Of a stretch of DNA of 64,000 nt, positions 18,293-34,937 are shown one piece after another. The translations under genes were made by a program, and so were the position numbers. The stretch is taken from assembly GCF_040500525.1 (NCBI RefSeq), contig NZ_CP159402.1, positions 1,859,501 to 1,923,500 on the forward strand. Direction: 5' to 3'. Under the pieces are notes generated by a model, which had not been told where the DNA came from, ran no database searches, and saw only the letters and a program-made list of their open reading frames with translations. Numbering within the stretch: position 1 is the first letter of the stretch; every line of letters begins with the position of its first letter. The DNA is from Azospirillum formosense. Lineage in GTDB: Bacteria > Pseudomonadota > Alphaproteobacteria > Azospirillales > Azospirillaceae.

Positions 18293-19117
18293 TCAATCCA
18301 GATGCCCTTGGGCGTTGAAATGCGCCCGGATGCGCTGGGTCAACTCGATGAAGACCGGGTGCCCCATGACGTCCAGCGAGCGCGGGCGGGGCAGCGGCAC
18401 CTCATAGGTCGCGGCGATGGCGCCGGGACGCTCCGACATCACCATCACCCGGTCGGCCAGGAACACCGCCTCGGGGATCGAGTGGGTGATCAGCAGCACC
18501 GTCTTGCCCGTCTCGTGCTGGATGCGCTGCAGCTCGACGTTCATCTTCTCCCGCGTCATGGCGTCGAGCGCGCCGAACGGCTCGTCCATCAGCAGGATCT
18601 TCGGGTCGTGGACCAGCGCCCGGCACAGCGAGGCGCGCTGCTGCATGCCGCCGGAGAGCTGCCAGGGGTACTTGTTCTCGAACCCCTCCAGCCCGGTCAT
18701 GCGGATCAGCGCGCGGGCGCACTCCAGATATTTGTCGCGCGGCAGGCCGCGGACCTCCACCGGCATCATGATGTTGCGCAGCACCGTCCGCCAGGCGAGC
18801 AGCACCGGGCTCTGGAACACGATGCCCACGTCGTCGTGCGGCTCGGTCACCGTGGTGCCTTCGATGGTGATGGCGCCCTCGCTGACCGGCAGCAGGCCGG
18901 CGACCAGCTTCAGCAGCGTGGACTTGCCGCAGCCGGACGGGCCGACCACCACCAGGAACTCCCCGTCCCGCACGTCGAAGGTGATCGGGCGCAGGGACGG
19001 CACCTCCCCGTCGCGGGTGCGGTAGGTCTTGGTCACGCCGTCGATCTGGATCAGGGTCTTTTGCGACAGGCGGGCCGTTTCGGCCGAGCCGACGACTTTC
19101 AACTGGGGCTGAGCCAT
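18293..19117 (-). CDS. ABC transporter ATPase (SsuB/TauB/NrtD type)
   Basis: The 274-residue protein has Walker A (GPSGCGKSTLL), the signature LSGGMQQRASL and Walker B (ILLMDEPFGALD), as in nitrate/sulfonate/taurine-type importers. It powers the permease encoded at 20195-21067. The start at 19117 follows GGAGAGCAGGGAC; the frame could begin ten codons earlier but without a better site. It lies 26 bases after the binding-protein gene and overlaps the ribosome site of the following enolase-family gene. Confidence 0.93.
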   Translation of the reverse strand: MAQPQLKVVGSAETARLSQKTLIQIDGVTKTYRTRDGEVPSLRPITFDVRDGEFLVVVGPSGCGKSTLLKLVAGLLPVSEGAITIEGTTVTEPHDDVGIVFQSPVLLAWRTVLRNIMMPVEVRGLPRDKYLECARALIRMTGLEGFENKYPWQLSGGMQQRASLCRALVHDPKILLMDEPFGALDAMTREKMNVELQRIQHETGKTVLLITHSIPEAVFLADRVMVMSERPGAIAATYEVPLPRPRSLDVMGHPVFIELTQRIRAHFNAQGHLD

Positions 19118-19143
19118 GTCCCTGCTCTCCTGTCCGTCCGGCC

Positions 19144-20142
19144 TCACTGGCCCGCCGCGGCGGGATCGGGGAGGAAGTCGCGGGTGTAGAAGGCCTTCGG
19201 GTTCTTCTTCGCCGCGGCGTCCAGGCCGCCGTACTCGACCAGCAGGTCCACGGTCTCGGCCATGTTGGCGTCGGTGACGCGGAAGGGCCGCTGCCCCTTG
19301 GTCTCCGCCGTGCGGTAGAGCGGCGTGGTCAGCTCGAAGCCCTCCAGCAGGGTGGCTTCCTGGCCGCCCTTGGGGTTGGCCTTGAGGATGGCGGCCACGG
19401 CTTCCTTCGGGTTCTTCTCCGCCCCTTCGACCGCCTTGGTCGTGGCGGCCATGAAGCGCTTCACGAGGTCGGGCTTGTCCTTCAGCGTCTCGGTGTGGGC
19501 GATGATGCCGGAGGAGACCATGTTGACGCCGTAGTCGGCGAAGCGGATCGGCGTCACCGACTTGCCGGTGGCGTCCTTGATCTTCATGCTCTGGTCCATG
19601 ACGTAGCCCAGCAGCAGGTCGGCCTGCCCGTTGATGACGGCGTTCAGCTTGGTCTGGGCGTCGCCGGACACGACGCGGAAGTCGCTGTCCTTCAGGCCGG
19701 TCTTCTTCAGGAACAGCGGCCAGATCTGGGACATGCTGTCGCCCGGCGTCATGGCGACGGTCTTGCCCTTGATGTCCTCGGGCTTGCGGATGTTCTTGTC
19801 GGTGAAGCCCATGGCCGACATCGGGCTGGTCTGGAGCAGCACGCCGGGTGAGGTCACCGGGGCGCCCTTCACCGCCGCCTTCATCATGGTCGGCACGTCG
19901 ACGTAGCCGAAATCGACGGTCTTCGCGGCCACCGCTTGGGTCGTCACCGCCGACCCGCGGCCCTCCTGGATCTCCAGGTCGATGCCCTCGGCCTCGTACA
20001 GGCCCTTGTCCTTGCCGTAGTAGAAGGGGGCGTGCTCGCCATACACGTACCAGTTCAGCATCAGCACGACCTTGTCCGCGGCCTGGGCCGGAAGCGTCGT
20101 GGCGGTGAGGGCGCAGAGCGCCGCGAAGAGCGTCCGTTTCAT
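19144..20142 (-). CDS. ABC transporter substrate-binding protein (NMT1/THI5-like)
   Basis: The 332-residue product has a signal peptide cleaved after about residue 21 (ALTATTLPAQAA), then an NMT1/THI5-like type II binding fold (LNWYVYGEHAPFYYGKDKGL, with a following glycine-rich EGRGSAV). This family includes binding proteins for pyrimidine precursors, riboflavin, sulfonates and aromatic acids, so the ligand cannot be named. The start has GGGAGGAGACGAG in front. Its gene partners suggest the ligand is degraded by the downstream enolase-family, dehydrogenase and aldolase-like enzymes. Confidence 0.92.
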   Translation of the reverse strand: MKRTLFAALCALTATTLPAQAADKVVLMLNWYVYGEHAPFYYGKDKGLYEAEGIDLEIQEGRGSAVTTQAVAAKTVDFGYVDVPTMMKAAVKGAPVTSPGVLLQTSPMSAMGFTDKNIRKPEDIKGKTVAMTPGDSMSQIWPLFLKKTGLKDSDFRVVSGDAQTKLNAVINGQADLLLGYVMDQSMKIKDATGKSVTPIRFADYGVNMVSSGIIAHTETLKDKPDLVKRFMAATTKAVEGAEKNPKEAVAAILKANPKGGQEATLLEGFELTTPLYRTAETKGQRPFRVTDANMAETVDLLVEYGGLDAAAKKNPKAFYTRDFLPDPAAAGQ

Positions 20143-20194
20143 CTCGTCTCCTCCCGAAAGGTGTCCGGCGTCGCTGTTGGTTTTGTGGTCGGCG

Positions 20195-21067
20195 TTACGA
20201 CGTCGGGATGTAGTTGTGGCGTTGGCTCGCGTGCCAGGGGATGGCGAGCCGCTCGATCACGTCGATGACCCAGAAAAGCACCACCCCGATCAGCGCCAGC
20301 ACCACCAGGGCGGCGAACATCAGGGGAAGTTCGAAATTGCCGATCGAGCGCTGCAGGACGAAGCCGATGCCGGAATTCGCCCCGACGAACTCGCCCACCA
20401 CGGCGCCCACCACGGCCAGCGTGATCGACACCTTCAGGCCGGCGAAGATGGCCGGCAGGGCGTGCGGCAGGCTGACCATGCGGAAGGTCTGAAGGCGCGT
20501 CGCCTTCATGGATTTGGCGAGGTCCATCATGTCGCCGTCCACCGACTTGAAGCCCTGCACCGCCGACACGACGATGGGGAAGAAAGCCAGCAGGAAGGCG
20601 GAAATCACCTTGGGCAGCAGCCCGAAGCCGAACCACACCACGAACAGCGGCGCGATGGCGACCTTGGGGATCGACTGCGAGAAGACCAGCAGCGGGTAGA
20701 CGTAGGATTCCACCGTCTTCGACCCGGCGATCAGCATGGCGATGGGAATGCCGAACAGCACCGACAGGGCGAAGCCGCCCAAGGTCGCCAGCGTGGTCGG
20801 CACCGACGCCGCCAGAAGCTGGTCCCAGTCCGCGGCCAGCGCCAAGGCCACGTCGCCCGGTTTCGGTATCAGATAGGGCGGGATCGCGAAGATCCGCACC
20901 GACAGGTCCCACAGGACGGTCAGGACCACCAGGAACAGCACCGGCCGGAACCAGCCGGAATTGAGCAGACGCAGCAGCGTGGCACCCGCCCCGCCCCGTC
21001 GCGCCGCCGTTCCCGAAGCGGAACCGCCACGGGACGCAGTCCCGTGAGCCGCCGCATCGACAGCCAT
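20195..21067 (-). CDS. ABC transporter permease (SsuC/TauC type)
   Basis: This 290-residue protein has about six membrane helices and the BPD_transp_1 EAA loop (MKATRLQTFRMVSLPHALP) that docks on the ATPase. The first 30 residues are a Ala/Gly-rich cytoplasmic tail. It is the first gene of the catabolic operon; GGAGGAGGAGCG precedes the start at 21067, and a TetR-type operator lies about 45-64 bases upstream of the start. Confidence 0.93.
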   Translation of the reverse strand: MAVDAAAHGTASRGGSASGTAARRGGAGATLLRLLNSGWFRPVLFLVVLTVLWDLSVRIFAIPPYLIPKPGDVALALAADWDQLLAASVPTTLATLGGFALSVLFGIPIAMLIAGSKTVESYVYPLLVFSQSIPKVAIAPLFVVWFGFGLLPKVISAFLLAFFPIVVSAVQGFKSVDGDMMDLAKSMKATRLQTFRMVSLPHALPAIFAGLKVSITLAVVGAVVGEFVGANSGIGFVLQRSIGNFELPLMFAALVVLALIGVVLFWVIDVIERLAIPWHASQRHNYIPTS

Positions 21068-21111
21068 CGCTCCTCCTCCCCCGGTCGTTGCGGCGCCGAC
21101 GCGAGGCGCTC

Positions 21112-21131
21112 TTTTAACCGGCTGGTTAAAA
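21112..21131. promoter_or_regulatory. TetR-type operator upstream of the catabolic operon
   Basis: The sequence TTTTAACCGGCTGGTTAAAA is a near-perfect 20-base palindrome between the regulator gene and the permease gene. Its core TTAACC-N4-GGTTAA resembles the RutR box TTGACCA-NN-TGGTCAA in length and in the ACC/GGT half-sites. It is the obvious target of the adjacent TetR protein. Confidence 0.75.
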
Positions 21132-21253
21132 GTAAGCCCGGCACGGCAAAGCGGTCAACCCTGCCAAATGGGTAGGACGGATGGTCAGGTATGCGGATTA
21201 TTCATGATGAAACCACCGGCCCGGAACGGCCGGCATGGAAGCCGCCAGCGGGC

Positions 21254-21931
21254 TCACGCCCGAAGCGACGACAGGATCAGCTCCACCATATGGTCCAGCC
21301 GCTCCGCCTTGGCCTCCTCGGCCAGCAGGTCGCGGCCGAAGATGACCGACAGCGTGTGAACGTTGGACAGGTAGAAATAGGACTGCCCGGCGATGGAGAT
21401 GTAGAGCTGCACCGGGTCCACCCCCGCCCGGAAGATCCCGGTGGCGACACCGCGTTCCAGCACGTCGGCGATCATCTGCACGAAGGGCGAATGCATGGCG
21501 TGCACCTTGTCGGAGGTCTTCAGCAGCTCCGCCCGGTGCAGGTTCTCGATGTTCAGCAGCGCCATGAACTCGGGATGGTCGAGGAAATACTGCCAGGTGA
21601 AGTGGATCAGCCGGGCGATGGCGGCGGGCGGGTCCAGCGTCTCCAGGCTCAGCGTGCGTTCGGTGGCGCGGATGTGCTCGTAGGCGCCCTCCAGCACCGT
21701 CAGATACAGGCTCTCCTTGTTGCCGACATGGTAGTAGAGCATGCGCTTGTTGGTGCCGGCGACCTCGGCGATCCGCTCCACGCGGGCGCCGCCCAGCCCA
21801 TGGCGCGCGAACTCCTCCGTCGCGGCGGCAAGGATGCGCGCGCGGGTGCCCTCCGGGTCGCGGGTGACCTTCGCGGGCTTGGCCGGCTTGGAGGTGGAAA
21901 GGCTCTTCTTCGGGTCGGTCAGCGTGTCCAT
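21254..21931 (-). CDS. TetR family transcriptional regulator (RutR/YcdC-like)
   Basis: The 225-residue product has a TetR helix-turn-helix at about residues 28-75 (ILAAATEEFARHGLGGARVE, then IAEVAGTNKRMLYYHVGNKE) and a helical ligand-binding domain containing HPEFMALLNIENLHRA, which recalls the YcdC/RutR C-terminal domain. It is encoded just upstream of the importer operon on the same strand, with the palindromic operator in the 186-base gap, so it most likely represses that operon and responds to the imported compound or a product. The start at 21931 has AGGA upstream; an ATG at 21949 is an alternative. Confidence 0.88.
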   Translation of the reverse strand: MDTLTDPKKSLSTSKPAKPAKVTRDPEGTRARILAAATEEFARHGLGGARVERIAEVAGTNKRMLYYHVGNKESLYLTVLEGAYEHIRATERTLSLETLDPPAAIARLIHFTWQYFLDHPEFMALLNIENLHRAELLKTSDKVHAMHSPFVQMIADVLERGVATGIFRAGVDPVQLYISIAGQSYFYLSNVHTLSVIFGRDLLAEEAKAERLDHMVELILSSLRA

Positions 21932-22023
21932 CCAGGCCGGTCCTCGCATGGCGCGGCCGGAGGGCAAGCCGCAATCCGTTCCAATGTGGAGCATATCAGC
22001 CGAAACGGAAAGACGAAGCGGCG

Positions 22024-24306
22024 TTACCGGCTCAAGAGCGTCGCGCCGCGCCAGATGCCGGGCTGCATGGCACCGGCGGCGTCGATGGCCGCCCCCGGAC
22101 CGTCCTGGATGCCGCCGCGGAACTGCCCGACATGGCGGGTGCCGCCGCGCATCGACAGCTCGCCCGGCCCCGCCGGGAGCCGGTCCACCACCACGCCGTT
22201 GAACCGCTCGCCGTTGGTGAAGGCCAGCTCGCCATGGCCGTCCACCCGGCCCTGGCGGACCTCGCCCGTGTAGGAATCGCCGTTGGCGAAGCGGTAGACG
22301 CCCGGCCCGTTCGGCACGGCGTTCACGAAGGTCCCCTCGAAGCGGTCGCCGGACGGGAAGCCCAGGACGCCGTAGCCGGACATCTGGTCGTCCTTCCACT
22401 CCCCCTCATAGACCTGCCCGTTGGCGAAGCGGTAGACGCCGACGCCGTTGCGGCTGATCGTGCCCTGAAGGGAGAAGTTGCCCAGCCCGCGGTTCCAAGC
22501 CCCCTCGTAGACGTCGCCGTTGGGGAAGCGGTGCACCCCGTAGCCCGACTCCCCGCCGCGGGCCTGACCGGCGGCGCGGCGGGCGGCGGCCTGGGCCTCG
22601 CGCGCCTTCGCCTCCGCCCCGCGCCCGGCGGTGGCGGAGCGCGCGGCACGGGCGGCGGCGTTGCGGCCCGCCTGCACGGCATCGCGGTACGGTTCGGCCA
22701 GCCCGGCGACGACCGGGTCCGCGCCGGTCGTCGAGCGCCCGGCGGCGCTGTCCCCGCCACCATCGGGAAGGGCGGCCAGCCGCGTCGGGCCGGTCGTGCC
22801 GGACAGCGCGCCGGCCGCCGGGTCGACATCGTTGCGAACCACCGTGGGCGGCGGGTAGGCGTTGGGCGCCGCACCGCCCATGGACACCGCTTCGCCCGAC
22901 CGGCCCGCCAATGTCCCGGTGGTGACGTAGCCCTCCTGCCCCGACGAATCCCGCACCAGCACCCAGCCGGAGTCGGGCGCCGCCTGGAGCAGCGTCACCC
23001 GTTGCCCCTGCTCCAGGTCGCGCAGGCTGCGGGCGCCCAGCACCGGGCGGGCGAACAGGTTGGCGTCGCGCGCCACCGTGTAGACGCCGGGAGCCAGCAT
23101 CGCCGGCTGGGGCGGTTGCTGGGGCGTCGTGGGTTGGGCGGAGGCGACCGGCACCTCCTCCGGCCTGGCGAGGTTGCTGGAGAAGGCGAAGCCGGTCTTG
23201 CCGTCCTGCTCGACGCGCAGCCAGCCGCCGTTGCGCCGGGTCCGCCCGGTGACCGTGACCTCGCTGTCGTGGCGCAGCGTGCCGACGACCGCCGCCTTGG
23301 TGTCGGGACCGGCGCGCAGGTTGGTGTCGCGCGTCACCACCCGCTTCTCGTTCAGCGGGTCCACCTCGACCTCGGCGACTGCCGGGGCGGCGGGCTTTTC
23401 CTCCGCCTTCTGCGGCAGCGGCTTGGGTTCGATTGCCTTGGGTTCAGGAGTCGTCGCCGCCACGGCGGATGGCGCCTCCTCCGTCCGGGCGACGGCGGGG
23501 GCGGACGGCGCGCGCGGGCCGGGCACCAGCACGAGGTCCGCGCCCAGCCGGTCCTGGAGCCAGGGATGCTGCGTCCCCCGCGTGCGTCCGACGACGGTGC
23601 GGGCGACCTCGGCCAGCGCGTCGCGCAGCGGCACGCCCGGCTTGACCATCTCCTGCGCCAGGGCGGTTGAGAAGGCGTCCGCCCCCTTGCCGGCCGCCGT
23701 CGCGGGCGGCGTGCCGGGCCGGTGCGAGTAGACGACGAACAGGTTGTCGAGCGCCGCCGGGGCCGCCAGCGCCGGCTTGACCGACCGCCCCTCCTCGCCC
23801 ATCGCCGATGCCAGCCGGTCGGCCAGCGGGTGGGCGGGCACCGGGTCGAACACGGCGACGGCCTTGCGCCCGCTGCGCTGGATCTCCTTCAGCGCGTAAT
23901 CCAGCTCGATGGTGTCGAAGATCACGTCGTATTCGGAGCCGGGCTTGGCGTCCACCGGCACCAGGAAGCCCTTGGCCGACAGGCTCAGCGCCACGCCGGA
24001 GTAGTAGAGGAAGCCCAGGTCGGCCTGCCCCAGCGCGTCCTGGAACCGGCTCAGCGCCGCGACCATGCCGCGGTGGTCGAGGTTCTCGGCGGCGGTGACG
24101 GTGAAGCCGGCGCGGCGCAGCGCGTCGGCGACGACCGCGGCGTTGGCGCCCACCCCGGCGGCCGGGCCGCCCTCCTGGTACTGCGCGTTGCCGATCACCA
24201 GCGCCACGCGCTTGTCGTCGGCGAGCGCCTGGGGGGCAAAGGCGGTGTTCGCCGTCACCAGGACCAGCGCAACGGTCCAAACGGCGCTCCGGGGCCAGCG
24301 CAACAC
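22024..24306 (-). CDS. Exported caspase-fold protein without catalytic dyad, with SH3 and MORN repeats
   Basis: The 760-residue product has an N-terminal signal peptide and a peptidase C14 (caspase-like) domain at about 33-240. It aligns without gaps to the catalytic blocks of the neighbouring caspase-like protein, but the catalytic His is Val105 (FLYYSGVALS) and the catalytic Cys is Val156 (VFDPVPAHPLADR), so protease activity is not expected. Two bacterial SH3-like domains follow (about 320-380 and 412-468), then a low-complexity linker and about six MORN repeats (pattern GVYRFANGxxYEGEW) from about 585 to 745. The start is taken as GTG at 24306 because GGAGGG lies seven bases upstream; a GTG at 24321 is possible. 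It probably acts in the periplasm as a binding or scaffold protein, perhaps with the active paralogue encoded upstream. Confidence 0.85.
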   Translation of the reverse strand: MLRWPRSAVWTVALVLVTANTAFAPQALADDKRVALVIGNAQYQEGGPAAGVGANAAVVADALRRAGFTVTAAENLDHRGMVAALSRFQDALGQADLGFLYYSGVALSLSAKGFLVPVDAKPGSEYDVIFDTIELDYALKEIQRSGRKAVAVFDPVPAHPLADRLASAMGEEGRSVKPALAAPAALDNLFVVYSHRPGTPPATAAGKGADAFSTALAQEMVKPGVPLRDALAEVARTVVGRTRGTQHPWLQDRLGADLVLVPGPRAPSAPAVARTEEAPSAVAATTPEPKAIEPKPLPQKAEEKPAAPAVAEVEVDPLNEKRVVTRDTNLRAGPDTKAAVVGTLRHDSEVTVTGRTRRNGGWLRVEQDGKTGFAFSSNLARPEEVPVASAQPTTPQQPPQPAMLAPGVYTVARDANLFARPVLGARSLRDLEQGQRVTLLQAAPDSGWVLVRDSSGQEGYVTTGTLAGRSGEAVSMGGAAPNAYPPPTVVRNDVDPAAGALSGTTGPTRLAALPDGGGDSAAGRSTTGADPVVAGLAEPYRDAVQAGRNAAARAARSATAGRGAEAKAREAQAAARRAAGQARGGESGYGVHRFPNGDVYEGAWNRGLGNFSLQGTISRNGVGVYRFANGQVYEGEWKDDQMSGYGVLGFPSGDRFEGTFVNAVPNGPGVYRFANGDSYTGEVRQGRVDGHGELAFTNGERFNGVVVDRLPAGPGELSMRGGTRHVGQFRGGIQDGPGAAIDAAGAMQPGIWRGATLLSR

Positions 24307-24548
24307 GTCGATACCCTCCACTTCAAACCTTCTTTGACCACCCCTTTAGGGAGTCACGGGCCGCGGCGGCTGTAACGAATTTGGTCGAAGCCGCCAGCGG
24401 CCTCCTGTTTTCGGGCCGTCCGCTCCGCAGATCGCCATGCCTTGAACGGCCAAGTCTAGCGCATTGGCCCAACACCGATTTCTGCAATTTCGGGGGCGCC
24501 GGGGTCCCATCCGCAGACGGTGCGTCCCACCAACGAACGCGCGCGGAG

Positions 24549-27308
24549 TCAGTTGAGGTCGCGGGCCACCCGCAACCCGTCGGCGAAGTAGCGCACGTCG
24601 GCGTCGTAGCCGATGCGGGCGGTGACGGCGATGGCGTCCTGCCCGTCCCGCCAGGAGCCGCCGCGCAGCACCCGCTTGCGGCAATCCCCCTCCGTCCAGG
24701 CGCTGCCGTCCGTCGGGGCGCCCTTGTAGCCGGGGTTCCAGCAGTCGGCGACCCATTCCGCCACGCCGCCGCTGGTGTCGTAGAGGCCGAAGGCGTTGGG
24801 CTGGAAGCTGCCGACCGGCGCCGGCAGGGCGCGGTCGGCGGCCCCGCCGCAGTCGCGGCAGTTGGCCAGCCGCGCCCCCGGCGTCAGGCTGTCCCCCCAG
24901 GCGAAACGCGCGGCGCTGCCGCCGCGCGCCGCATACTCCCACTCGGCCTCGCTGGGCAGGCGGTAGCGCTGCCCGGTCTTGCGGCTGAGCCACTCGGTGT
25001 AGGCCAGCGCGTCCTCGACGTGGATGTTGTGGACCGGCGTGTCGTCGGAGGGGTTGCGCATCCGCGGCATGGCGGCGCAGCCACCGCCCTCCACGCAGGC
25101 CCGCCAGTTGGCGACCGTCACCTCGTAGACCCCGATGGCGAAGGGACGGGCGAAGGTGACGCGGTGGGGCGGGCGCTGGCTGGCGTCGCCGCGCTCGCTG
25201 CCCATGACGAAGCTGCCGGCGGGGATGCGCATCATCGGCGGGCAGGCGGGGCAGTCCTGGAAGCTGCTGCCGTTGCCCTGCGCCCGCCCCTGCGACCCTC
25301 CCGGCTGGGCCGGCGCGGCGAGCGCGAGCCGCTGGCGGTCCTCCGGCCCGGCGGGGCGCAGCGCGGGGCCGCGGACGAAGCCCTGCACGCCGCCCTGGGT
25401 GCCGTCATCCAGGGCCACCCGGTACCAGTCGGCGTCGGCCACCCGGCCCAGCACCCGCACCGCGCCGTCCTTGGCGAGGGCGCCGACCCGCTCCGACCGC
25501 GCGTCCGGCCCGGCGCGCAGCTCCGCGTCGGCGACGGCCACGTACACCCCCTCCCCGGTGGTGTCGAGCTGGAGTTCCGGCGGCGGCGTGGCCTTGCCGC
25601 CGGGCGCCCCGCTGCCCGCGCCGTTGCCGGCACCATTGCCGGAGGGCCCGCTGCTCCCCGCCCCGCCCGCCGCGGTGGCTGCGGCGACCTTGGCCGATTC
25701 GGCGCGCAGCCGGTTCAGCCGGTCCCGCGCCGGGGCGGCGAAGGGGCCGGTGCCGAAGAGCCGCAGGAAGGCGTCCAGCGCGTCGGCGTCGCGGCTGTCG
25801 CGCACGCGGCGCCACAGCGACTCCTCCAGATCGGCCTGCGGCGGCGCGGCGCCGGCCTCCTCCACCTCCAGCAGTGCGCTCATCGTCGTGCGCCCGCCGC
25901 GCCCGTCCTCGACCAGCACGCTGAACACCCCGGCGCGGCCCGCCGGCGCCCGTTCCGGGTCGAAGGTCAGGGCGGTCAGCCGCTCCGGCGCCAGCTTGTC
26001 GCCGGGCTTCAGCGTTGTGGTGCCGTCGTGGACCTTGCCGCGCTCCGGCACGGCGCTGACGGTGAAGGTCAGCGGATCGCCGTCCGGGTCGGTCGGCACC
26101 TCCAGCCGCAGGCTGTTGACGACGGCGCGCACGCTGCGCTCGGCGACGGCGACCGGCGGGCGGTTGCTCGGTTTGATGAGGATCGGCACGGCGCCCCGCG
26201 CCACCCCGCCGCGCCCGTCCATCACCGCGAACTCGAAGCTGCCGGCGTCGCCGAGGTGGGTGGCGTCGGCCCGGAAGGTCGCGGCGGTGAGCTGGTCCAG
26301 CGTCAGGTAGTCGCCGATCAGCACCACCCGGTCGCCGATGCGCACCCCGCCGCCGCGCGGCAGGCCGGTGACCTGGGCGAAGAGCTGGTCGTTGTCGGGA
26401 TCGCTGGGCCGCGCGATGCCGAGCCCCTCCGTCCCGCCGCGGTCGAACACCTCCAGCGTCTTGAAGGCGGCGAGCTGCGGCGGCCGGTTCTCGGGCAGCG
26501 GGTTGAAGTAGAAGGGGGCGGCGCCGAGCGAGCCATAGAGGAAGGGCTCCTGCCGGCCCTGGGTGATCTGCATGACGTCGTCGCGCACGCGGCGGAAGAA
26601 CAGGCTCAGCTCCAGCCCCGGCACGTCGAAGTTCTTCAACAGCGACGCGGTGTAGGGGCTGTGGTCGCCCTGCCCGTCCTCGGCCACCGCGTCGGCGCGG
26701 GTGGCCATGGCGACCAGCGTGTCGGTCGGCGTGTCGTCGACGCGGGCGAAGCCGGAATGCACCTCCGTCTTCTTGGTGCCGGACCGCACCAGACGGTCGG
26801 CGAAGGGGTTGTTGCGGCAGGCGTCCAGGATCAAGATGCCCAGCTTGCGCGCCTGGGCCAGCTCGCCCATCGGCAGGTTCAGCGGCAGCGCCTCGTAGAC
26901 CAGATCGCGCTCGCGCTCCAGCCGGGCGTCGGCGGGGATCAGGAAATTGGTGCCGCCCACCTGCATGCCGTGGCCGGCGAAATAGAGCAGCGCCACGTCG
27001 GCCTGGGCCGCCTGGATGCCGAAGCCGCGCAACGCCTCGGCCATGCCGCGGTTGTCGAGGTCGTAGCGCTCCTCCACCGCGAAGCCCAGCTTGCGCAAGG
27101 CCGCCGCCATGGCGCGGGCGTCGTTGCGCGGGTTGGGCAGTTCGGTGGCGTGACGGTAGGCGCCGACACCGATGACCAGGGCGATGCGCTGCTCCGGCGC
27201 GGTGGCCGCCGGAGCGGGCACGGTCCACGCCGCCACGGCCAGCAGAAGGCCGGCGGTCAGCGCCAGCAGGAGGCGGCACGAGACGAAACGGTGAAGGCGC
27301 GCAGCCAT
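24549..27308 (-). CDS. Exported caspase-like protease (peptidase C14) with SH3 and FGE-sulfatase-like domains
   Basis: The 919-residue product has a signal peptide (about 1-37), a caspase-like domain at about 40-310 with catalytic His113 (LLYFAGHGMQ) and Cys164 (ILILDACRNNPF), a cadherin-like beta region at about 330-490, a linker, an SH3-like domain (about 583-650) and a C-terminal formylglycine-generating-enzyme fold (about 694-919, RIPAGSFVMGSERG to RGGSWRDG). The FGE fold lacks the paired cysteines of true FGE near its end, so it is probably a C-type-lectin-like binding module. The family comprises bacterial orthocaspases, which usually cut after Arg or Lys. The start at 27308 has GGGGTG upstream. 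The inactive paralogue follows 242 bases downstream on the same strand. Substrate and role are unknown. Confidence 0.88.
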   Translation of the reverse strand: MAARLHRFVSCRLLLALTAGLLLAVAAWTVPAPAATAPEQRIALVIGVGAYRHATELPNPRNDARAMAAALRKLGFAVEERYDLDNRGMAEALRGFGIQAAQADVALLYFAGHGMQVGGTNFLIPADARLERERDLVYEALPLNLPMGELAQARKLGILILDACRNNPFADRLVRSGTKKTEVHSGFARVDDTPTDTLVAMATRADAVAEDGQGDHSPYTASLLKNFDVPGLELSLFFRRVRDDVMQITQGRQEPFLYGSLGAAPFYFNPLPENRPPQLAAFKTLEVFDRGGTEGLGIARPSDPDNDQLFAQVTGLPRGGGVRIGDRVVLIGDYLTLDQLTAATFRADATHLGDAGSFEFAVMDGRGGVARGAVPILIKPSNRPPVAVAERSVRAVVNSLRLEVPTDPDGDPLTFTVSAVPERGKVHDGTTTLKPGDKLAPERLTALTFDPERAPAGRAGVFSVLVEDGRGGRTTMSALLEVEEAGAAPPQADLEESLWRRVRDSRDADALDAFLRLFGTGPFAAPARDRLNRLRAESAKVAAATAAGGAGSSGPSGNGAGNGAGSGAPGGKATPPPELQLDTTGEGVYVAVADAELRAGPDARSERVGALAKDGAVRVLGRVADADWYRVALDDGTQGGVQGFVRGPALRPAGPEDRQRLALAAPAQPGGSQGRAQGNGSSFQDCPACPPMMRIPAGSFVMGSERGDASQRPPHRVTFARPFAIGVYEVTVANWRACVEGGGCAAMPRMRNPSDDTPVHNIHVEDALAYTEWLSRKTGQRYRLPSEAEWEYAARGGSAARFAWGDSLTPGARLANCRDCGGAADRALPAPVGSFQPNAFGLYDTSGGVAEWVADCWNPGYKGAPTDGSAWTEGDCRKRVLRGGSWRDGQDAIAVTARIGYDADVRYFADGLRVARDLN

Positions 27309-27588
27309 GGTCACCCCATGCCATGGGTCACCGGACGGTGGGGCGGCAACGCCCCGCGTTCCGATCCATCCAGTATTCGACCGCACCCCGCGGAACCAGA
27401 GCACAAAACCGGCGAAGGCCTCTCCACAGGCGGGGGCATGGCCACCCGCAAGAAAGACGGGGGCCGGCGGCGGACGGCGCGGCGAATGCGCGGTCCGCCG
27501 CATTCCGGGGCGATCCAGGGCGAGGTTGTGCTTTCCCTTTGCCCGAAAGGTTTCTATATGACCCCTTCGACAACACAGGGATCATGCC

Positions 27589-27849
27589 ATGCCGCCCGCC
27601 AAGCCGACGGTCGCCAAGATGACCGAAACCGAAATCGCCCGTGTGCAGACCTATCTGCGCAAGACTCTCGGCAACGACAAGATCATCATCCAGCCGCCCG
27701 AGAAGGCCGGCCAGTCCGCGGAGGTCATGCTGGGCGACGAGTTCGTCGGCACCCTGCACCGCGACGTGGACGAGGGTGAGGTCTCCTACGCCCTGCACGT
27801 CGTCATTCTGGAAGAAGACCTGCCGGCCGCCCCGACAACCCGTCGCTGA
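27589..27849 (+). CDS. DUF3126 family protein
   Basis: This 86-residue acidic protein (EIARVQTYLRKTLGNDKIII, GEVSYALHVVIL) matches DUF3126, a small alphaproteobacterial family of unknown function and cytoplasmic location. The Met at codon 11 is an alternative start closer to the conserved part. It is a single-gene unit divergent from the caspase gene. Confidence 0.85.
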   Translation: MPPAKPTVAKMTETEIARVQTYLRKTLGNDKIIIQPPEKAGQSAEVMLGDEFVGTLHRDVDEGEVSYALHVVILEEDLPAAPTTRR

Positions 27850-27947
27850 GCCTGCCTTTTCCAGCGCGGTCCTCTCCCGCCGCCCGGCGGGAGGGGCGCT
27901 TGCCCGCGGGCCAATCAAACCCGGGCCATATAGACTCTGGGCGCATA

Positions 27948-27979
27948 AAATTCAGGCCCGATGAAACTCGGGCCCGATG
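27948..27979. repeat. Tandem 16-base repeat
   Basis: Two adjacent copies, aaattcaggcccgatg and aaactcgggcccgatg, differ at two positions, and a partial third (aaacccgggcc) lies upstream near 27918. They abut the stop codon of the next gene. The meaning is unknown. Confidence 0.6.
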
Positions 27980-28591
27980 TCAGCTTGGCCGGCTGTGGCG
28001 GCGCAGTTCGGCGGCCAGCCCGGCCATCAGCGTCTCACCGCCCGACAGAGTAAGGCCGCGCACCAGGATAAGCGCCGGCAGATGGTTCCGGCGCAGAAGA
28101 AGCAGCCGGTAGCCGGCACGCGGACGCCGTCCCCTTCCCGGCTTCTCCTCCTCCATGTCCACGTCGCCGCCGGCCAGCGCCAGCTCCCGTTCGTGCTGCT
28201 GCGGGGTCATCGTCTGGATGCGCGCCACGAACAGCGGGCGCTTGCCCTGCGGCGGGTAGAGCGCCACGCCGCGGATGGTGTTGTGCGGGATCAGCTGCCC
28301 ATGGGCGGTCAGCCCATCCGGCGCCACCACGAGCCGCACGGCGCTGCGCCTTGCCGCCCGCAGCAGCGTGATCACCCACATCAGCAGAAGCGGGATCGCG
28401 CACAGGATGCCCAGCCAGCGCAGCATCGAGGCTGTCGGCTCCAGCGTCAGTTCGGCGACCACGACGAAGCCGGCGAGCAACAGGGCGGCGTAGAGCAGAT
28501 GGGCGTAGCGCTGGGGCGGCACGCTGGACGGCGACGCCTCGAACACCGCCGCCTGCCCCGTGTCCTCGCGGGAGATCTCGACCTCGGGCAT
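27980..28591 (-). CDS. Hypothetical membrane protein with two transmembrane helices
   Basis: The 203-residue product has a polar N-terminus, two closely spaced hydrophobic helices at about 30-50 and 58-78, and a cytoplasmic C-terminal domain of about 120 residues with a PH-like look (LVVAPDGLTAHGQLIPHNTI, a beta-rich start). That resembles bPH-type proteins, but I do not recognise a family. GGACGGG precedes the start. A 20-base palindrome lies 94 bases upstream. Confidence 0.65.
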   Translation of the reverse strand: MPEVEISREDTGQAAVFEASPSSVPPQRYAHLLYAALLLAGFVVVAELTLEPTASMLRWLGILCAIPLLLMWVITLLRAARRSAVRLVVAPDGLTAHGQLIPHNTIRGVALYPPQGKRPLFVARIQTMTPQQHERELALAGGDVDMEEEKPGRGRRPRAGYRLLLLRRNHLPALILVRGLTLSGGETLMAGLAAELRRHSRPS

Positions 28592-29341: not shown

Positions 29342-29386
29342 GCCGTTTCCTCCCGTCGTCATTGATTGCACCGAGTATGACCGAAA

Positions 29387-29400
29387 GCCGCGTATACGGC
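29387..29400. promoter_or_regulatory. Candidate operator in the cupin/propionyl-CoA synthase divergent region
   Basis: GCCGCGTATACGGC contains the 8-base palindrome CGTATACG. GTATAC-centred sites are typical of FadR-type GntR regulators, although no such regulator is encoded in the window. A weak promoter (TTGCGG, 19 bases, TATAGT at 29450) follows for the rightward gene. Confidence 0.3.
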
Positions 29401-29516
29401 ATACCCCCGCCGCGCACGGCGCCATTGCGGCGGATGCAGCGCGCCGCGCTATAGTGATGCCCGCCGCGCAGAACACGCGGCCACCAATGAAAAAGAGCCC
29501 GACCGGGAGGAAACCC

Positions 29517-32500
29517 ATGGACCACGCCGTCGCGGAGTCCGCCGGACAGCCGCCGCTGCCGCAGGACGTCGCCGTCAATCCCATCCGCTCCGCCGCGGAT
29601 TGGCAGAGCCAACGCGCCGCCTGCGCGGCCGATCCCGGCGCCTTCCACGGCGCCATCGCCGCGGAGACGATCCACTGGTTCGACGGCGCGCACTGGCTGA
29701 TGCGCGACGCCGACGGTGTGTGGCGCGGTTGGAACGCCGCCACGGGCGAACCGGCGGACCAGGCCACGGCACGCGCGGACTGGACGCCCTGGACGCAGGC
29801 CTTCGACGGATCGGAGGCGCCCTTCTACCGCTGGTTCGCGGGCGGGCTGACCAACGCCGCCTTCAACGAGGTGGACCGCCACGTCCTGTCCGGCCATGGC
29901 TCGGAGCCGGCCTACTGGTACGAGGGCGACCGCTGGGACGCCGCGGCCAACGGCGGGCGCGGCGGCCCGGTCCATCACGTCACGCTGACCCGGCGCGAGC
30001 TGCTGATCCGCTCGGCGCTCGCCGCGCTGGCGCTGCGCGGGCTGGGGTTGAGACAAGGCGACCGCATCGCGCTGAACATGCCCAACATCCTCGACCAGAT
30101 CGTCTGGACGGAGGGGGCGAAGCGCCTCGGCATCATCTACACCGCCGTCTTCGGCGGCTTCTCCGACAAGACCCTGTCCGACCGCATCGAGAACGCCGGC
30201 GCCCGCGTCGTCATCACCGCCGACGGCGCCAGCCGCAACGCCGAGATGGCTCCCTTCAAGGAAGCCTACAGCGACCCGGCGCTCGACCGCTTCGTCGCCC
30301 TGCCCACGGCGCTGCGCATCACCGAGGAGGTCCTGCGCGCCAAGCTGGGCGACACCGCCCTGATGGAGCCGGTGCGCCGCGGGCTGGAGGGCGAGATCAC
30401 CGTCGCCCCCGCCGACGTGATGCGCGAACTGGGCCGGGCGCTGGACCGCGCCGGGACGCTCGACGCCGCCACCGTGGCCGACCTGCGCGCCAGCGTCGCC
30501 GAGGCGCTGACCGCTGCCCCGCCGCGCGTCGAGGCGGTGATCGTCGTCCGCCACGCCGGTCTGCCCGACATCCCCTGGACCGAGGGCCGCGACGTCTGGG
30601 CGCACGACCTGCTGGCGAAGGCCGAGGCGGAGCTGTGCGCCGCCGCTGGTTTGGCCGGCATGGAGGCGTTGCGCGCGCTGGACGACCGGGCGCTCTACGC
30701 CGCCGTGGCGAAGGCGGTTCCCTGCGTTCCGGTGGACGCGGAGTATCCGCTGTTCATCATCTACACCTCCGGCTCCACCGGAAAGCCGAAGGGGGTGGTG
30801 CATGTCCATGGCGGCTACGTCGCCGGGCTCGCCCACACCATGAAGGTCAGCTTCGACGCCCTGCCGGGCCGCGACGTCATCTACGTCGTCGCCGATCCCG
30901 GCTGGATCACCGGGCAGAGCTACCTTATCACCGCCAGCCTCGCCGCCCGCATCCCCGGCATCGTGACGGAGGGAGCGCCGGTCTTCCCCAACGCCGGCCG
31001 CTTCGCCTCCATCATCGAGCGGCACAAGGTGACCATCTTCAAGGCGGGCGTAACCTTCCTGAAGACGGTCATGACCCATCCGGAGAACCGCGCCGACGTC
31101 GAGCGCTACGACCGCGGCAGCCTGCGCGTCGCCACCTTCTGCGCCGAGCCGACCAGCCCCGCCGTCCAGGCCTTCGGGATGGCGGTGATGACTCCGCAAT
31201 ACATCAACAGCTATTGGGCGACGGAGCATGGCGGCATCGTCTGGACTCATCCCTACGGCAACCCCGACCAGCCGCTGCGCGCCGACGCCCACACCTATCC
31301 CCTGCCCTGGGTTCTCGGCGACGTCTGGGTCCCCGAGAGCGAGCCGGACGCCGCCGGCCGCGTCGCCTTCCGCCCCGCCGAACCGGAGGAGAAGGGCGAG
31401 ATCGTCGTCACCGCCCCCTATCCCTATCTGACCCGCACCATCTGGGGCGACGCGGAGAATGTCGGGAAGCCGGGCTGGAAGGGCGACTTCGACCGTTTCG
31501 TGACGACCTATTTCGGGCGCTTCCGCGACGCCGACGGCAAGCCGGTCTGGGCCTACCTGCAGGGCGACTTCGCGCGGCGCTACGAGGACGGCAGCTTCAG
31601 CCTGCACGGGAGGTCCGACGACGTCATCAACGTGTCCGGCCACCGCATGGGGACGGAGGAGATCGAGGGGGCGATCCTGCGCGACAAGCAGATCAACCCC
31701 GACAGCCCGGTCGGCAACGTCATCGTGGTCGGCGCCCCCCACCGCGAGAAGGGCCTGACCCCCGTCGCCTTCGTCCTGCCCGCCAAGGGCCGCGACATCA
31801 CCGCCGACGACGAGCGCCGGCTGAAGGATCTGGTGCGGCAGGAGAAGGGCGCGGTCGCCGTCCCCTCCGACATCCTCGCCGTCCCGGCCTTTCCCGAGAC
31901 GCGCTCCGGCAAGTACATGCGCCGCTTCCTGACGGCGATGATGAACGGGGAGCCGCTGGGCGACACCTCCACCCTGCGCAACCCGGAATGCCTGACCGAC
32001 CTTGAGGCGCGCATCGCCGCCTGGAAACGCGGCCAGCAGCGGGCGGAGGAACAGACCCTCATCGAACGGCAGCGCTTCCTGTCCGTCCAGTACGACCGTC
32101 TGGCCGACGGCGTGCGCCTGGCGACGGTGACCATCGACAACCCGCCGGTCAACGCGCTCTCCGACCGCCTGCTCGACGAGCTGGACACGCTGGTCGCCCA
32201 TCTCGCCCGGCGGGCGGACGTGCGGGCCGTGGTGATCACCGGCACGGGCCGGACCTTCGTGGCCGGCGCCGACATCCGCCAGCTTCTCGACGAGGTGCGG
32301 GACGAGGGCGAGGCCCGCGCCCTGCCCGCCAAGGCCCACGCCGTCTTCCGCGCCATCGCGGCGCTGGACAAGCCGGTGTTCGCCGCGATCCGCGGCGTGG
32401 CGCTGGGCGGCGGCTGCGAGCTGGCGATGGCCTGCCATGTCCGGGTGGCCGATCCCCGCGCCCGATTGGGCCAGCCGGAGATCAACCTGTTCCTGCCGCC

Positions 32501-34937
32501 GGGCTATGGCGGCACGCAGCGCCTGCCGCGCCTGCTGCTTCGGAAAGACCCGGAGCGGGGGTACGGGCGAGCGCTGGAGATCCTGCTGTCCGGGCGCCAG
32601 ATCGACGCCGGGACGGCGCTGGAGTATGGGCTGGTGGATGTGGTGGCGCGGGGGGCGGACGATGCGCTGACGCTGGCGAAGACAATGGCGCGGGAGGCCG
32701 CACTTGCCCCCTCCACTTCTCATGCCCCCTCCCCAGCCCTCCCCCGCTTCGCGGGAGAGGGGGCCTGTTCCCCTCCACCGCCAAAGGCGGGGGAGGGTGC
32801 CCGCGAAGCGGGCGGGAGGGGGCCGGAGGTGATGCGCCTCCTCCGCCAAGCCCACAGCGTCGGCCGCGGTCCGGTCGCCGACACCATCGTCCAGCTCGTC
32901 GACACCGGCCTGCGCGACGGCTTCGAGGCCGGCTCAGCCGCCGAGATCGATGCCTTCGCCCGCTTCCTCCTCGACGCCGAGAACGGCGCCAAGAAGGGCA
33001 TCGCCCTGTTCCTGGAGAAGAAATCGCCGCCCCTGCCCGCCCGTCCGCGGCGCGGCAGCCGCGACGGCGTGCTGCCCATCGGGAGCCCCTTCATCCCCGG
33101 CGCCACGCCCCTGCCCCGCTGGCAGCTCGCCCAGGCCGTCGTGCGCGACCTGGAAACGGGAGCGGCCGTCCATGGCGACCCGGCGCGGGCCGAGACGGAG
33201 GTCGTCATCCCCGTCCCCGAGCCCGGCCCCAACCAGGCGCTCGTCTACGTCCTCGCCTCCGAGGTCAACTACAACGACGTCTGGGCGCTGACCGGCATCC
33301 CCATCTCGCTGTTCGACGAGCATGACGAAGACGTGCACGTCACCGGCTCCGGCGGCGTCGGCATGGTCGTGCGGATGGGCGAGGCGTTGCAGGCGCAGGG
33401 GCGCCTGGCCGTCGGCGATCTGGTCGCCGTCTATTCCGGAGTCTCCGACCTGCTGGACCCGGAGGCCGGGGCCGACCCGATGTTCACCGACTTCCACATC
33501 CAGGGCTACCAGTCGCCGGACGGCAGCCACCAGCAATTCATGCTGGCCGACGGGCCGCAGCTCTTCCCCCTGCCGCCCGGCCTCGCGCTGGAGGAGGCGG
33601 GGAGCTACATGCTCGCCGCCGGCACCGGCTACCGCGCGCTGTTCACGGCCCTCGACGTCCAGCCCGGCAAGCGCCTGCTGGTGGAAGGCGCGGCGGGCGG
33701 CACCGGCGCCTGGACGGTCGAACTGGCGCTGGCCCGGCGCATGAGGGTGACCGGCATGGTGTCGTCGGAACGCCGCGCCGCCGCGATCCGCGCCCGCGGG
33801 GCGGAGGCGGTGGACCGCTCCGTCGCCGAGGCCGCCTTCACCCGCATCCCCGCCGACCCGGCACGGTGGGCCGCGTGGGAGGAGGCCGGACGCCCCTACC
33901 TCGACGCACTGCGCGCCGCCAACGGCGGCCAGCTCGTCGACTACGCGGTCAGCCACGCCGGCGAGACGACCTTCCCGCGCACCTTCCAATCGCTGGCCGA
34001 GGGCGGCGCGCTGACCTTCTTCGGCGCGTCCAGCGGCTACCACATGACCTTCCTCGGCAAGCCCGGCGCCGCCGAGCCGGCCACGATGCTGCGCCGCGCC
34101 CGCCTGCGCCCCGGCGAGGCCGTGCTGGTCTTCTACGGCGCCGGGGCGGTGGGTCTGCGCGACGACATGGCGCTGTCGGCCATCGAGGCGGCGCGCGAGT
34201 CCGGCGCCCGCGTCTGCGTCGTCACCGACCGGGATTCCGAGCGCGACTTCGTGCTGTCGCTGGGCTATGGCGAGGCGCTGGCCGGCGCCGTATCGCTGGC
34301 CGAGATCAAGCGCCGCGTGCCGCATTTCGACTGGCCCGACACCATGCCGGACCTGCCCGACCCGCAGCGCGAGACGGCCGCCTTCAAGGAGGCCGTGCGC
34401 CTGTTCACCGAGGACACCTTCAAGCCGCTGGGCCAAGCGGTGGGCCGCATCCTGCGCGCCGCCGACAACCCGCGCGGCATGCCGGACGTGGTGGTGGAGC
34501 GGGCGCGGCGCGACACGCTGGCCGTCTCCACCATGCTGGTGAAGCCGCACACGGGGCGCGTCGTCTATTGCGGCGACATGGCCCCCGACGGTAGTGGTCG
34601 GCGCTACAGCTTTTACGCGCCCCAGGTGTGGATGCGCCAGCGCCGCATCCTGATGCCATCCGCGACCATCGTCGGCACGCATCTTTCGAACGCTGCGGAA
34701 ATCGCAGGGCTGAACCGCGTCATTGCGTCGGGGGCGGTCCGTGTGCCAACGACATACCTCGGTAACTGGGACGAGCTGCCCACGCTCCATCAGGCCATGT
34801 GGGAGAACCGCCTGCCGGAAGCGACCGGCGGCGCCGCCAAGGCCGTCGTGAACCACGCGCTGCCGGAAGCGGGCCTGACCTCGCGGGACGAACTGCTGAT
34901 CGCCTGGGCGGGGTCGGCAACAGGAAAGGGACAATGA
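29517..34937 (+). CDS. pcs: Trifunctional propionyl-CoA synthase-like enzyme (acyl-CoA synthetase, enoyl-CoA hydratase, enoyl-CoA reductase)
   Basis: The 1806-residue product has three enzymes in a row. Residues about 1-830 are an acetyl-CoA-synthetase-type ligase with the P-loop YTSGSTGKPKG near 414, the hinge block RSDDVINVSGHRMG near 698 and the catalytic Lys in RSGKYMRR near 796. Residues about 850-1130 are a crotonase with both catalytic Glu residues (GGGCELAMA, GQPEINLFLPPGYGG). Residues about 1185-1800 are a crotonyl-CoA-reductase-type dehydrogenase with a nucleotide-binding GAAGGTG near 1390. Order and length match propionyl-CoA synthase, which turns 3-hydroxypropionate into propionyl-CoA. 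A palindromic repeat adds about 33 residues near 1069-1102. GGGAGGAAACCC precedes the start. The stop overlaps the next gene's ATG. Activity on 3-hydroxypropionate is inferred; acrylate or related acids are alternatives. Confidence 0.85.
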   Translation: MDHAVAESAGQPPLPQDVAVNPIRSAADWQSQRAACAADPGAFHGAIAAETIHWFDGAHWLMRDADGVWRGWNAATGEPADQATARADWTPWTQAFDGSEAPFYRWFAGGLTNAAFNEVDRHVLSGHGSEPAYWYEGDRWDAAANGGRGGPVHHVTLTRRELLIRSALAALALRGLGLRQGDRIALNMPNILDQIVWTEGAKRLGIIYTAVFGGFSDKTLSDRIENAGARVVITADGASRNAEMAPFKEAYSDPALDRFVALPTALRITEEVLRAKLGDTALMEPVRRGLEGEITVAPADVMRELGRALDRAGTLDAATVADLRASVAEALTAAPPRVEAVIVVRHAGLPDIPWTEGRDVWAHDLLAKAEAELCAAAGLAGMEALRALDDRALYAAVAKAVPCVPVDAEYPLFIIYTSGSTGKPKGVVHVHGGYVAGLAHTMKVSFDALPGRDVIYVVADPGWITGQSYLITASLAARIPGIVTEGAPVFPNAGRFASIIERHKVTIFKAGVTFLKTVMTHPENRADVERYDRGSLRVATFCAEPTSPAVQAFGMAVMTPQYINSYWATEHGGIVWTHPYGNPDQPLRADAHTYPLPWVLGDVWVPESEPDAAGRVAFRPAEPEEKGEIVVTAPYPYLTRTIWGDAENVGKPGWKGDFDRFVTTYFGRFRDADGKPVWAYLQGDFARRYEDGSFSLHGRSDDVINVSGHRMGTEEIEGAILRDKQINPDSPVGNVIVVGAPHREKGLTPVAFVLPAKGRDITADDERRLKDLVRQEKGAVAVPSDILAVPAFPETRSGKYMRRFLTAMMNGEPLGDTSTLRNPECLTDLEARIAAWKRGQQRAEEQTLIERQRFLSVQYDRLADGVRLATVTIDNPPVNALSDRLLDELDTLVAHLARRADVRAVVITGTGRTFVAGADIRQLLDEVRDEGEARALPAKAHAVFRAIAALDKPVFAAIRGVALGGGCELAMACHVRVADPRARLGQPEINLFLPPGYGGTQRLPRLLLRKDPERGYGRALEILLSGRQIDAGTALEYGLVDVVARGADDALTLAKTMAREAALAPSTSHAPSPALPRFAGEGACSPPPPKAGEGAREAGGRGPEVMRLLRQAHSVGRGPVADTIVQLVDTGLRDGFEAGSAAEIDAFARFLLDAENGAKKGIALFLEKKSPPLPARPRRGSRDGVLPIGSPFIPGATPLPRWQLAQAVVRDLETGAAVHGDPARAETEVVIPVPEPGPNQALVYVLASEVNYNDVWALTGIPISLFDEHDEDVHVTGSGGVGMVVRMGEALQAQGRLAVGDLVAVYSGVSDLLDPEAGADPMFTDFHIQGYQSPDGSHQQFMLADGPQLFPLPPGLALEEAGSYMLAAGTGYRALFTALDVQPGKRLLVEGAAGGTGAWTVELALARRMRVTGMVSSERRAAAIRARGAEAVDRSVAEAAFTRIPADPARWAAWEEAGRPYLDALRAANGGQLVDYAVSHAGETTFPRTFQSLAEGGALTFFGASSGYHMTFLGKPGAAEPATMLRRARLRPGEAVLVFYGAGAVGLRDDMALSAIEAARESGARVCVVTDRDSERDFVLSLGYGEALAGAVSLAEIKRRVPHFDWPDTMPDLPDPQRETAAFKEAVRLFTEDTFKPLGQAVGRILRAADNPRGMPDVVVERARRDTLAVSTMLVKPHTGRVVYCGDMAPDGSGRRYSFYAPQVWMRQRRILMPSATIVGTHLSNAAEIAGLNRVIASGAVRVPTTYLGNWDELPTLHQAMWENRLPEATGGAAKAVVNHALPEAGLTSRDELLIAWAGSATGKGQ
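32724..32822. repeat. Palindromic repeat element, type 2, inside the propionyl-CoA synthase-like gene
   Basis: The element shows the same nested arms as the intergenic copies (GCCCCCTCCCC, CCCTCCCCCGCTTCGCGGGAG, GGCGGGGGAGGG, then GGGAGGGGG). It is translated in frame into a Pro/Gly/Ala-rich peptide (with FAGEGACSPPPPKAGEGARE) in the C-terminal part of the hydratase domain. Confidence 0.8.

Follow-up and report, generated by a model that had tools for sequence, protein, structure and literature searches.

Inactive relatives of the bacterial orthocaspases have already been described as a class, the pseudo-orthocaspases (Klemencic et al. 2019, PMC6426788; SyOC, PMC7889975). As set out in PMC6426788, they are tied to phototrophs. 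The same account mentions cFLIP and holds that prokaryotic pseudo-variants are most likely not regulators of the true enzymes; two of the 582 alphaproteobacterial cases it reports come from Rhodospirillales. In the literature searched, no description was found of an active/dead caspase-fold pair of the kind considered here, and a search combining orthocaspase with Azospirillum turned up no paper. A sequence-only reading of the locus had supposed such an envelope pair to be undescribed. For the pair this stands within the literature searched, but its dead member joins a class known in bacteria (PMC6426788).

The window, 64,000 nucleotides of Azospirillum formosense DNA, comes from a genome of 6.1 Mb in six contigs. 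Three Peptidase_C14 proteins were found in that genome: the neighbors A and B (Table 1) and A2, a paralogue of A located elsewhere in the genome and present in 26 genomes. Copies of A at this site are called A1. By a rough estimate that assumes 5500 genes, two of three caspase-fold genes would be adjacent by chance with a probability of about 0.001. Over the caspase domain, identity between B of the window and its counterparts in named Azospirillum brasilense strains reaches 99%, and 'Roseomonas genomospecies 6' has the same locus.

Table 1. Features of the locus and of the loci compared with it (positions in the window, unless a locus is named).
Feature	Position	Strand	Remark
Gene A (A1), orthocaspase, 919 aa: signal-like N-terminus, caspase, Big_9, SH3_3, FGE/PvdO-like	24549..27308	-	
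A, putative signal peptide (residues 1-35)	27204..27308	-	by eye
A, caspase domain (41-259) with Asp63, His113, Asp162, Cys164	26532..27188	-	
A, Big_9 Ig-like domain (382-476)	25881..26165	-	
A, SH3_3 domain (595-640)	25389..25526	-	
A, FGE-sulfatase-fold domain (689-916)	24561..25244	-	best PDB match PvdO
A-B intergenic region, 227 nt	24322..24548	-	block TTGCAGAAAT..TGCGCTAGAC conserved among near relatives
Gene B, pseudo-orthocaspase, 765 aa: signal-like N-terminus, dead caspase, two SH3, MORN	22024..24321	-	GTG start
B, putative signal peptide (residues 1-35)	24217..24321	-	by eye
B, dead caspase domain (37-260): Asn for Asp63, Val110, Val161	23542..24213	-	Asp two before dead Cys site kept
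B, first SH3_3 (333-384)	23170..23325	-	
B, second SH3	about 22888-23085	-	limits by eye
B, MORN repeat region (about residues 591-750)	22072..22551	-	
DUF3126 gene	27589..27849	+	divergent from A
Conserved neighbor, 203 aa	27980..28591	-	
TetR/RutR-like regulator	21254..21931	-	downstream of B
ABC transporter (ATPase, binding protein, permease)	18293-21067	-	by reading; downstream of the RutR-like TetR regulator
Bradyrhizobium active/dead loci	L107 4917-8383, L147 4982-8365, L152 2-3474		
Neighboring His-Cys orthocaspase loci	L073 2520-8228 (same place as L148), L143, L134		

Domain search and alignment give gene A a caspase p20 fold with a His-Cys dyad (Peptidase_C14 at residues 41-259, E 1.1e-36). 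The dyad that had been read from the sequence, His113 and Cys164, is there, and together with Asp63 and Asp162 it is present in all 15 A1 copies. The two aspartates would form an acidic S1 pocket, an assignment made by analogy with TbMC2 as given in PMC6426788, with the correspondence judged by eye. A1 is an active-type orthocaspase, of predicted Arg/Lys specificity, that evolved separately from B.

The C-terminus of A (FGE-sulfatase at 689-916, E 8.3e-54) is harder to place. Residues 672-918 match PvdO (NCBIfam E 1.4e-54) with 185 bits, below the NCBIfam PvdO cut-off of 500 bits, and there are matches to FGE structures as well. FGE carries two active-site cysteines after RGGS[YW]; by reading, no Cys follows RGGSW in A, and the FGE alignments end just before that site. 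Since the FGE fold figures in PMC8195603 as a lectin-like sensor, we read this end of A as lectin-like. That it might be a hypervariable FGE/lectin receptor diversified by a DGR is not supported by the last 60 alignment columns, in which the commonest residue has a mean share of 0.944 (15 A1 copies). The earlier assignment of FGE-like and SH3 modules to A, and of SH3 and MORN to B, was borne out by domain search; the Big_9 Ig-like domain of A had been absent from it. SH3 was found in 12 of 12 A1 copies compared and in 12 of 23 copies of A2, with no match in the eight A2 copies (8/8) from the brasilense clade. (A-type frames were picked for this comparison by motif, with intact His and Cys, so it does not bear on the A2 dyads.) The difference fits, without proving, the idea that A1 is the envelope-tethered copy in that clade.

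Gene B matches Peptidase_C14 over residues 37-260 (E 1.5e-17). Its caspase domain and that of A share 28% identity across 243 columns; the single gap in the alignment comes after the two catalytic blocks. The alignment is thus gapless over the blocks, as the sequence-only reading had it, with His113 and Cys164 of A opposite Val110 and Val161 of B. Among the matches listed, the best to B yielded 34 caspase domains of the B family, spread over 32 of the 37 genomes of the genus (G000-G036), with two each from G020 and G028; both catalytic residues are absent from all 34. The His site holds L (19 copies), V (13), M (1) or G (1), and the Cys site V (17), G (7), A (4), I (2), S (2), M (1) or T (1). 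The change to valine is therefore no sequencing accident. The dead site is itself conserved, reading mostly Y-Y-[ST]-G-[LV]-A and D-P-x, with Gly114 replaced by Ala in 31 of the 34. With a caspase fold by prediction and the dyad replaced in every copy fetched, B answers to the definition of a pseudo-orthocaspase and is presumably catalytically inactive.

Both window proteins begin with signal-peptide-like N-termini with a site of the A-x-A type, in agreement with the earlier proposal that they are exported. The N-terminus of B was recovered at 29 of 30 loci, in 28 of these above our own hydrophobicity cut-off.

In the pocket of B, the equivalent of Asp162 is kept in 34 of the 34 copies fetched (among the matches listed), and Asp63 is Asn in 33 and Ser in one, so that the acidic S1 pocket would be half neutralized. 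Perhaps basic peptides can still bind to the kept Asp, which would make B a decoy or substrate trap, competing with orthocaspases for substrate or presenting it to them; known pseudo-orthocaspases likewise keep their pocket aspartates (PMC6426788). We think this very improbable, because the known class keeps both residues and B does not, and because all 54 aligned sequences, active and dead, have this Asp, which may be structural.

Purifying selection maintains the dead domain. Median dN/dS (NG86, pairwise, pairs with dS under 1.5) for the caspase domain of B is 0.124 in genomes with the pair (brasilense clade) and 0.164 in genomes with B only (lipoferum clade; 55 pairs each), values low enough to show that the domain is not decaying. 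The caspase domain of A gives 0.070 (55 pairs), and the MORN region of B gives 0.052 (36 pairs, pair genomes) and 0.105 (55 pairs, B-only genomes). By prediction, the caspase fold survives in this domain: an AlphaFold2 model (pLDDT 91.3) has MALT1 (3uo8) as its best PDB match (E 2.9e-13, TM 0.73 by query length), and the other best matches are caspases. The call leans on active relatives, since the input alignment contained them.

B did not arise by tandem duplication of A. In the caspase-domain tree, B sequences form one clade (100/100) and A-type sequences another (100/100), and the two are not sisters, although the program warns of long branches. When genome contigs were scanned with a B profile, 26 of the best 80 loci were B-family, all of them dead and all from Azospirillum-type records; in the other 54 the matching domain was His-Cys. 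Outside the genus, 22 of 22 caspase domains were His-Cys with Asp63 (20 regions, mostly the top-scoring ones when 385 genomes of the class were searched). Within the material examined, then, the B family looks confined to Azospirillum. The reported link to phototrophs fits poorly here, because the family occurs in 32 of 37 Azospirillum genomes (among the matches listed) and the genus is mostly non-phototrophic.

Other adjacent caspase-fold genes came into view. Three Bradyrhizobium loci have, in an independent neighborhood, an HA-type dead gene divergent from an HC orthocaspase gene. As a general rule, these active/dead neighbors of Bradyrhizobium were given up: a near full-length relative (82%) of the dead gene was found in one of 60 genomes of the genus of G396, the other matches being partial. 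Adjacent same-strand His-Cys orthocaspase genes were seen in Azospirillum agricola (three), Ruegeria arenilitoris (three) and Salaquimonas (two).

A1 is present in sixteen Azospirillum genomes, and in 15 of them B lies directly next to it. The order DUF3126 (divergent), A1, B holds in the window and 14 further genomes, B running off the contig in G005 and G017. In the sixteenth, G022, A1 and B stand at two contig ends (the starts of L157 and L158), where the contigs break near the two genes at 30 exact shared bases of repeat-like sequence. Fifteen other genomes lack A1 but have B at this site, DUF3126 being followed directly by B. G002 is counted here although its B gene (L070 / L159) lies in two reading frames, through a frameshift or an assembly error. 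In G029, G031 and G036 the site holds an SH3-MORN protein (open frame 291-333 aa) without a caspase domain. Another three copies of B, one from G020 and two from G028, showed neither A1 nor DUF3126, although the sequence covered their upstream sides.

A2 is present in 11 of the 15 B-only genomes. In the others (G003, G004, G011 and G015), and in G028, which also has B, no A-type gene was detected at E 1e-50. In a Peptidase_C14 scan of 13 chosen genomes, G004, G011 and G015 gave 3, 6 and 4 matches, B included, and the single PF00656 match of G003 was its B. One genome, then, keeps B without any detected active orthocaspase, so that an active caspase partner, as cFLIP would lead one to expect, does not accompany B in every organism. 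G003 is a single genome of 9 contigs, 99% complete; its rpoB match is in pieces with an internal stop, so assembly errors and missed genes are possible. The reverse case is G383, from a related genus, whose only Peptidase_C14 match is a gene of the A type (72% in the caspase domain) that also has FGE; no B was found there.

The sequence-only reading had likened A and B to caspase-8 and cFLIP and had named rare co-occurrence as what would tell against it. For A1 co-occurrence is not rare: A1 was not seen without an adjacent B, apart from the genome in which both fall at contig ends. Any dependence is one-way, however, and the pair is not obligate, since related species keep B without A1. On the stronger claim, the dead domain of B would heterodimerize with A1 (elsewhere with A2) at the cell wall and switch or restrain the protease. 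The adjacency is consistent with this, as are an A1 tree that tracks the species tree in outline, the presence of B in all 27 genomes of the genus with an A-type gene, SH3 domains in every A1 copy compared and in B of the window, and the predicted survival of the fold. We nevertheless consider it rather unlikely. Fifteen genomes keep B while lacking A1, G003 keeps it with no other caspase homologue detected, and G383 has an A-type gene without B; the A and B domains are not sisters; the rise in dN/dS where A1 is missing is not specific to the caspase domain of B, the MORN region rising too; and PMC6426788 argues against such a role for known pseudo-orthocaspases. It is possible to explain B without any partnership.

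How the present distribution arose may be judged from the species tree. With rpoB and rpoC together, G022 and G027 fall outside a group made of the pair clade and the B-only clade; support is moderate (83/83 and 81/81 at these forks for all codon positions, 92/82 and 77/82 for positions 1+2, where G022 joins G010); rpoB alone gives bootstraps of 54-55. Strong support places G031 and G036 within the B-only clade (G029 has no rpoB match, so the placement covers these two), and the caspase-less SH3-MORN protein is accordingly not the ancestral state. Nor did the B-only genomes move A1 to another place: their A-type gene falls among the A2 copies, which form a clade of their own (94/95). The simplest history has A1 and B together early, followed by a single loss of A1 and, later and in one branch, by that of the dead domain. 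This direction of losses is the probable one, and the polarity of the A1 loss leans on moderate tree support.

On balance, and with modest confidence, we favor the view that B is a genus-specific pseudo-orthocaspase, maintained by selection as a non-catalytic SH3-MORN module of the envelope, whose core function does not depend on A. B would be exported, probably to the periplasm, where its SH3 domains may bind the cell wall. Its N-terminal caspase fold, having lost catalysis and half of the S1 pocket for basic residues, would now act as a non-catalytic binding module independent of the neighboring protease. For A1, the Ig-like, SH3 and lectin-like (FGE-fold) domains would serve in targeting. 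Its place between DUF3126 and B would date from early in the genus, and its loss would most simply have happened once, in the lipoferum/oryzae lineage. Where both proteins exist, their SH3 domains may bring about co-localization, and B may be a binding partner of A1.

Some observations sit awkwardly with an independent B. Every one of the 27 genomes of the genus with an A-type gene has the B caspase domain, compared with 5 of the 10 that lack such a gene (one-sided Fisher test, p 5.8e-4, without correction for relatedness), and caspase-less forms occur at the site only where no A-type gene was detected. Together these hint at a link to A-type enzymes, and the association is only a hint because independent events are few. 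Furthermore, an orthocaspase could bind at the new, conserved signature of the dead site, and G003 is one genome in which genes may have been missed. One might imagine an envelope complex in which a dead-caspase SH3-MORN scaffold holds the exported orthocaspase at the cell wall by heterodimerization of caspase folds, the lectin-like FGE domain acting as sensor. After A1 was lost, B would have turned to A2 or taken on a role free of any protease; once the last A-type enzyme was gone, the dead domain would have been deleted in one branch. We hold this whole sequence to be improbable.

The surroundings bear on a plainer alternative, that A1 and B are functionally unrelated and adjacent by descent in one genus. 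A and B are about 220-330 nt apart in 12 loci (in two the B start is approximate). No terminator-like site was found in the gap and no sigma-70-like site in 21000-28100; the conserved block in the gap could be a candidate promoter of B. Of the 37 other places mapped, 32 have DUF3126 next to [A1]-B or next to the SH3-MORN protein. The 203-aa protein, found in 32 of 61 genomes, all 32 Azospirillum, had seemed constant enough to be a partner of B. That idea was weakened by a terminator-like site just after its gene, by the divergent DUF3126 gene between it and A, and by its absence from G027, G022 and G028. Because of the terminator-like site and DUF3126, it is a neighbor and unlikely to share an operon with A. 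Its predicted structure has two long helices and strands, with weak similarity to DUF3093 (E 0.012); the model (pLDDT 72) had no PDB match at E 0.001. On the other side of B, the ABC transporter and the RutR-like regulator are kept in most brasilense-clade loci. Farther off, at 29346-34934 (+), a stretch of 1863 aa in one frame carries AMP-binding, enoyl-CoA hydratase and zinc-dehydrogenase domains, a combination resembling propionyl-CoA synthase.

That all pair genomes are congeneric, that DUF3126 and in most cases the 203-aa gene are also kept in order, and that the A-B gap measures about 220-330 nt all suit mere shared neighborhood. Against it, two caspase-fold genes lie side by side in a genome with three, and G027, which falls outside the main clades and has no 203-aa gene, retains the pair. 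We regard it as unlikely. It is a stricter form of the independent envelope module that we favor and overlaps with it, so the likelihoods given to the several readings do not add up to certainty.

Whatever its role, B offers natural variants. Azospirillum has, at one site, both genes, the dead gene alone, or no dead domain, and these states occur in related plant-associated bacteria, including a genome whose dead protein is the only caspase homologue found. Whether B is a protease's partner or an independent scaffold is thus directly testable.

Compared with known systems, A shares the combination of caspase and FGE-sulfatase with 33 metacaspase-like sequences in Asplund-Samuelsson et al. 2012 (PMC3501461) and goes beyond it with a signal-like N-terminus, Big_9 and SH3, the last not occurring in the main text of that paper. 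The likeness of its C-terminus to the PvdO/FGE fold is one of fold, short of the PvdO cut-off. Caspase-8/cFLIP-L and TbMC3/TbMC4 (as cited in PMC6426788) resemble A and B in that active and inactive caspase-fold proteins occur in one organism; unlike them, B is kept without A. Pseudo-orthocaspases are the closest known counterpart of B: they, too, are bacterial, have a caspase fold, lack the His-Cys dyad and form conserved clades, and some carry export signals (PMC6426788, PMC7889975). Like B in G003, those reported from small unicellular cyanobacteria can be the sole caspase homologue in the genome. Their dyads, however, are mainly YS, YA, FS, QC and HA (Rhizobiales) or YS and YN (cyanobacteria), and both pocket aspartates are conserved (PMC6426788), where B has lost one; SH3 and MORN, both found in B, do not occur in the main text of that account. 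Among known pseudo-orthocaspases, B is a new type, with V/L at the His site, V/G/A at the Cys site, and an SH3-MORN architecture.
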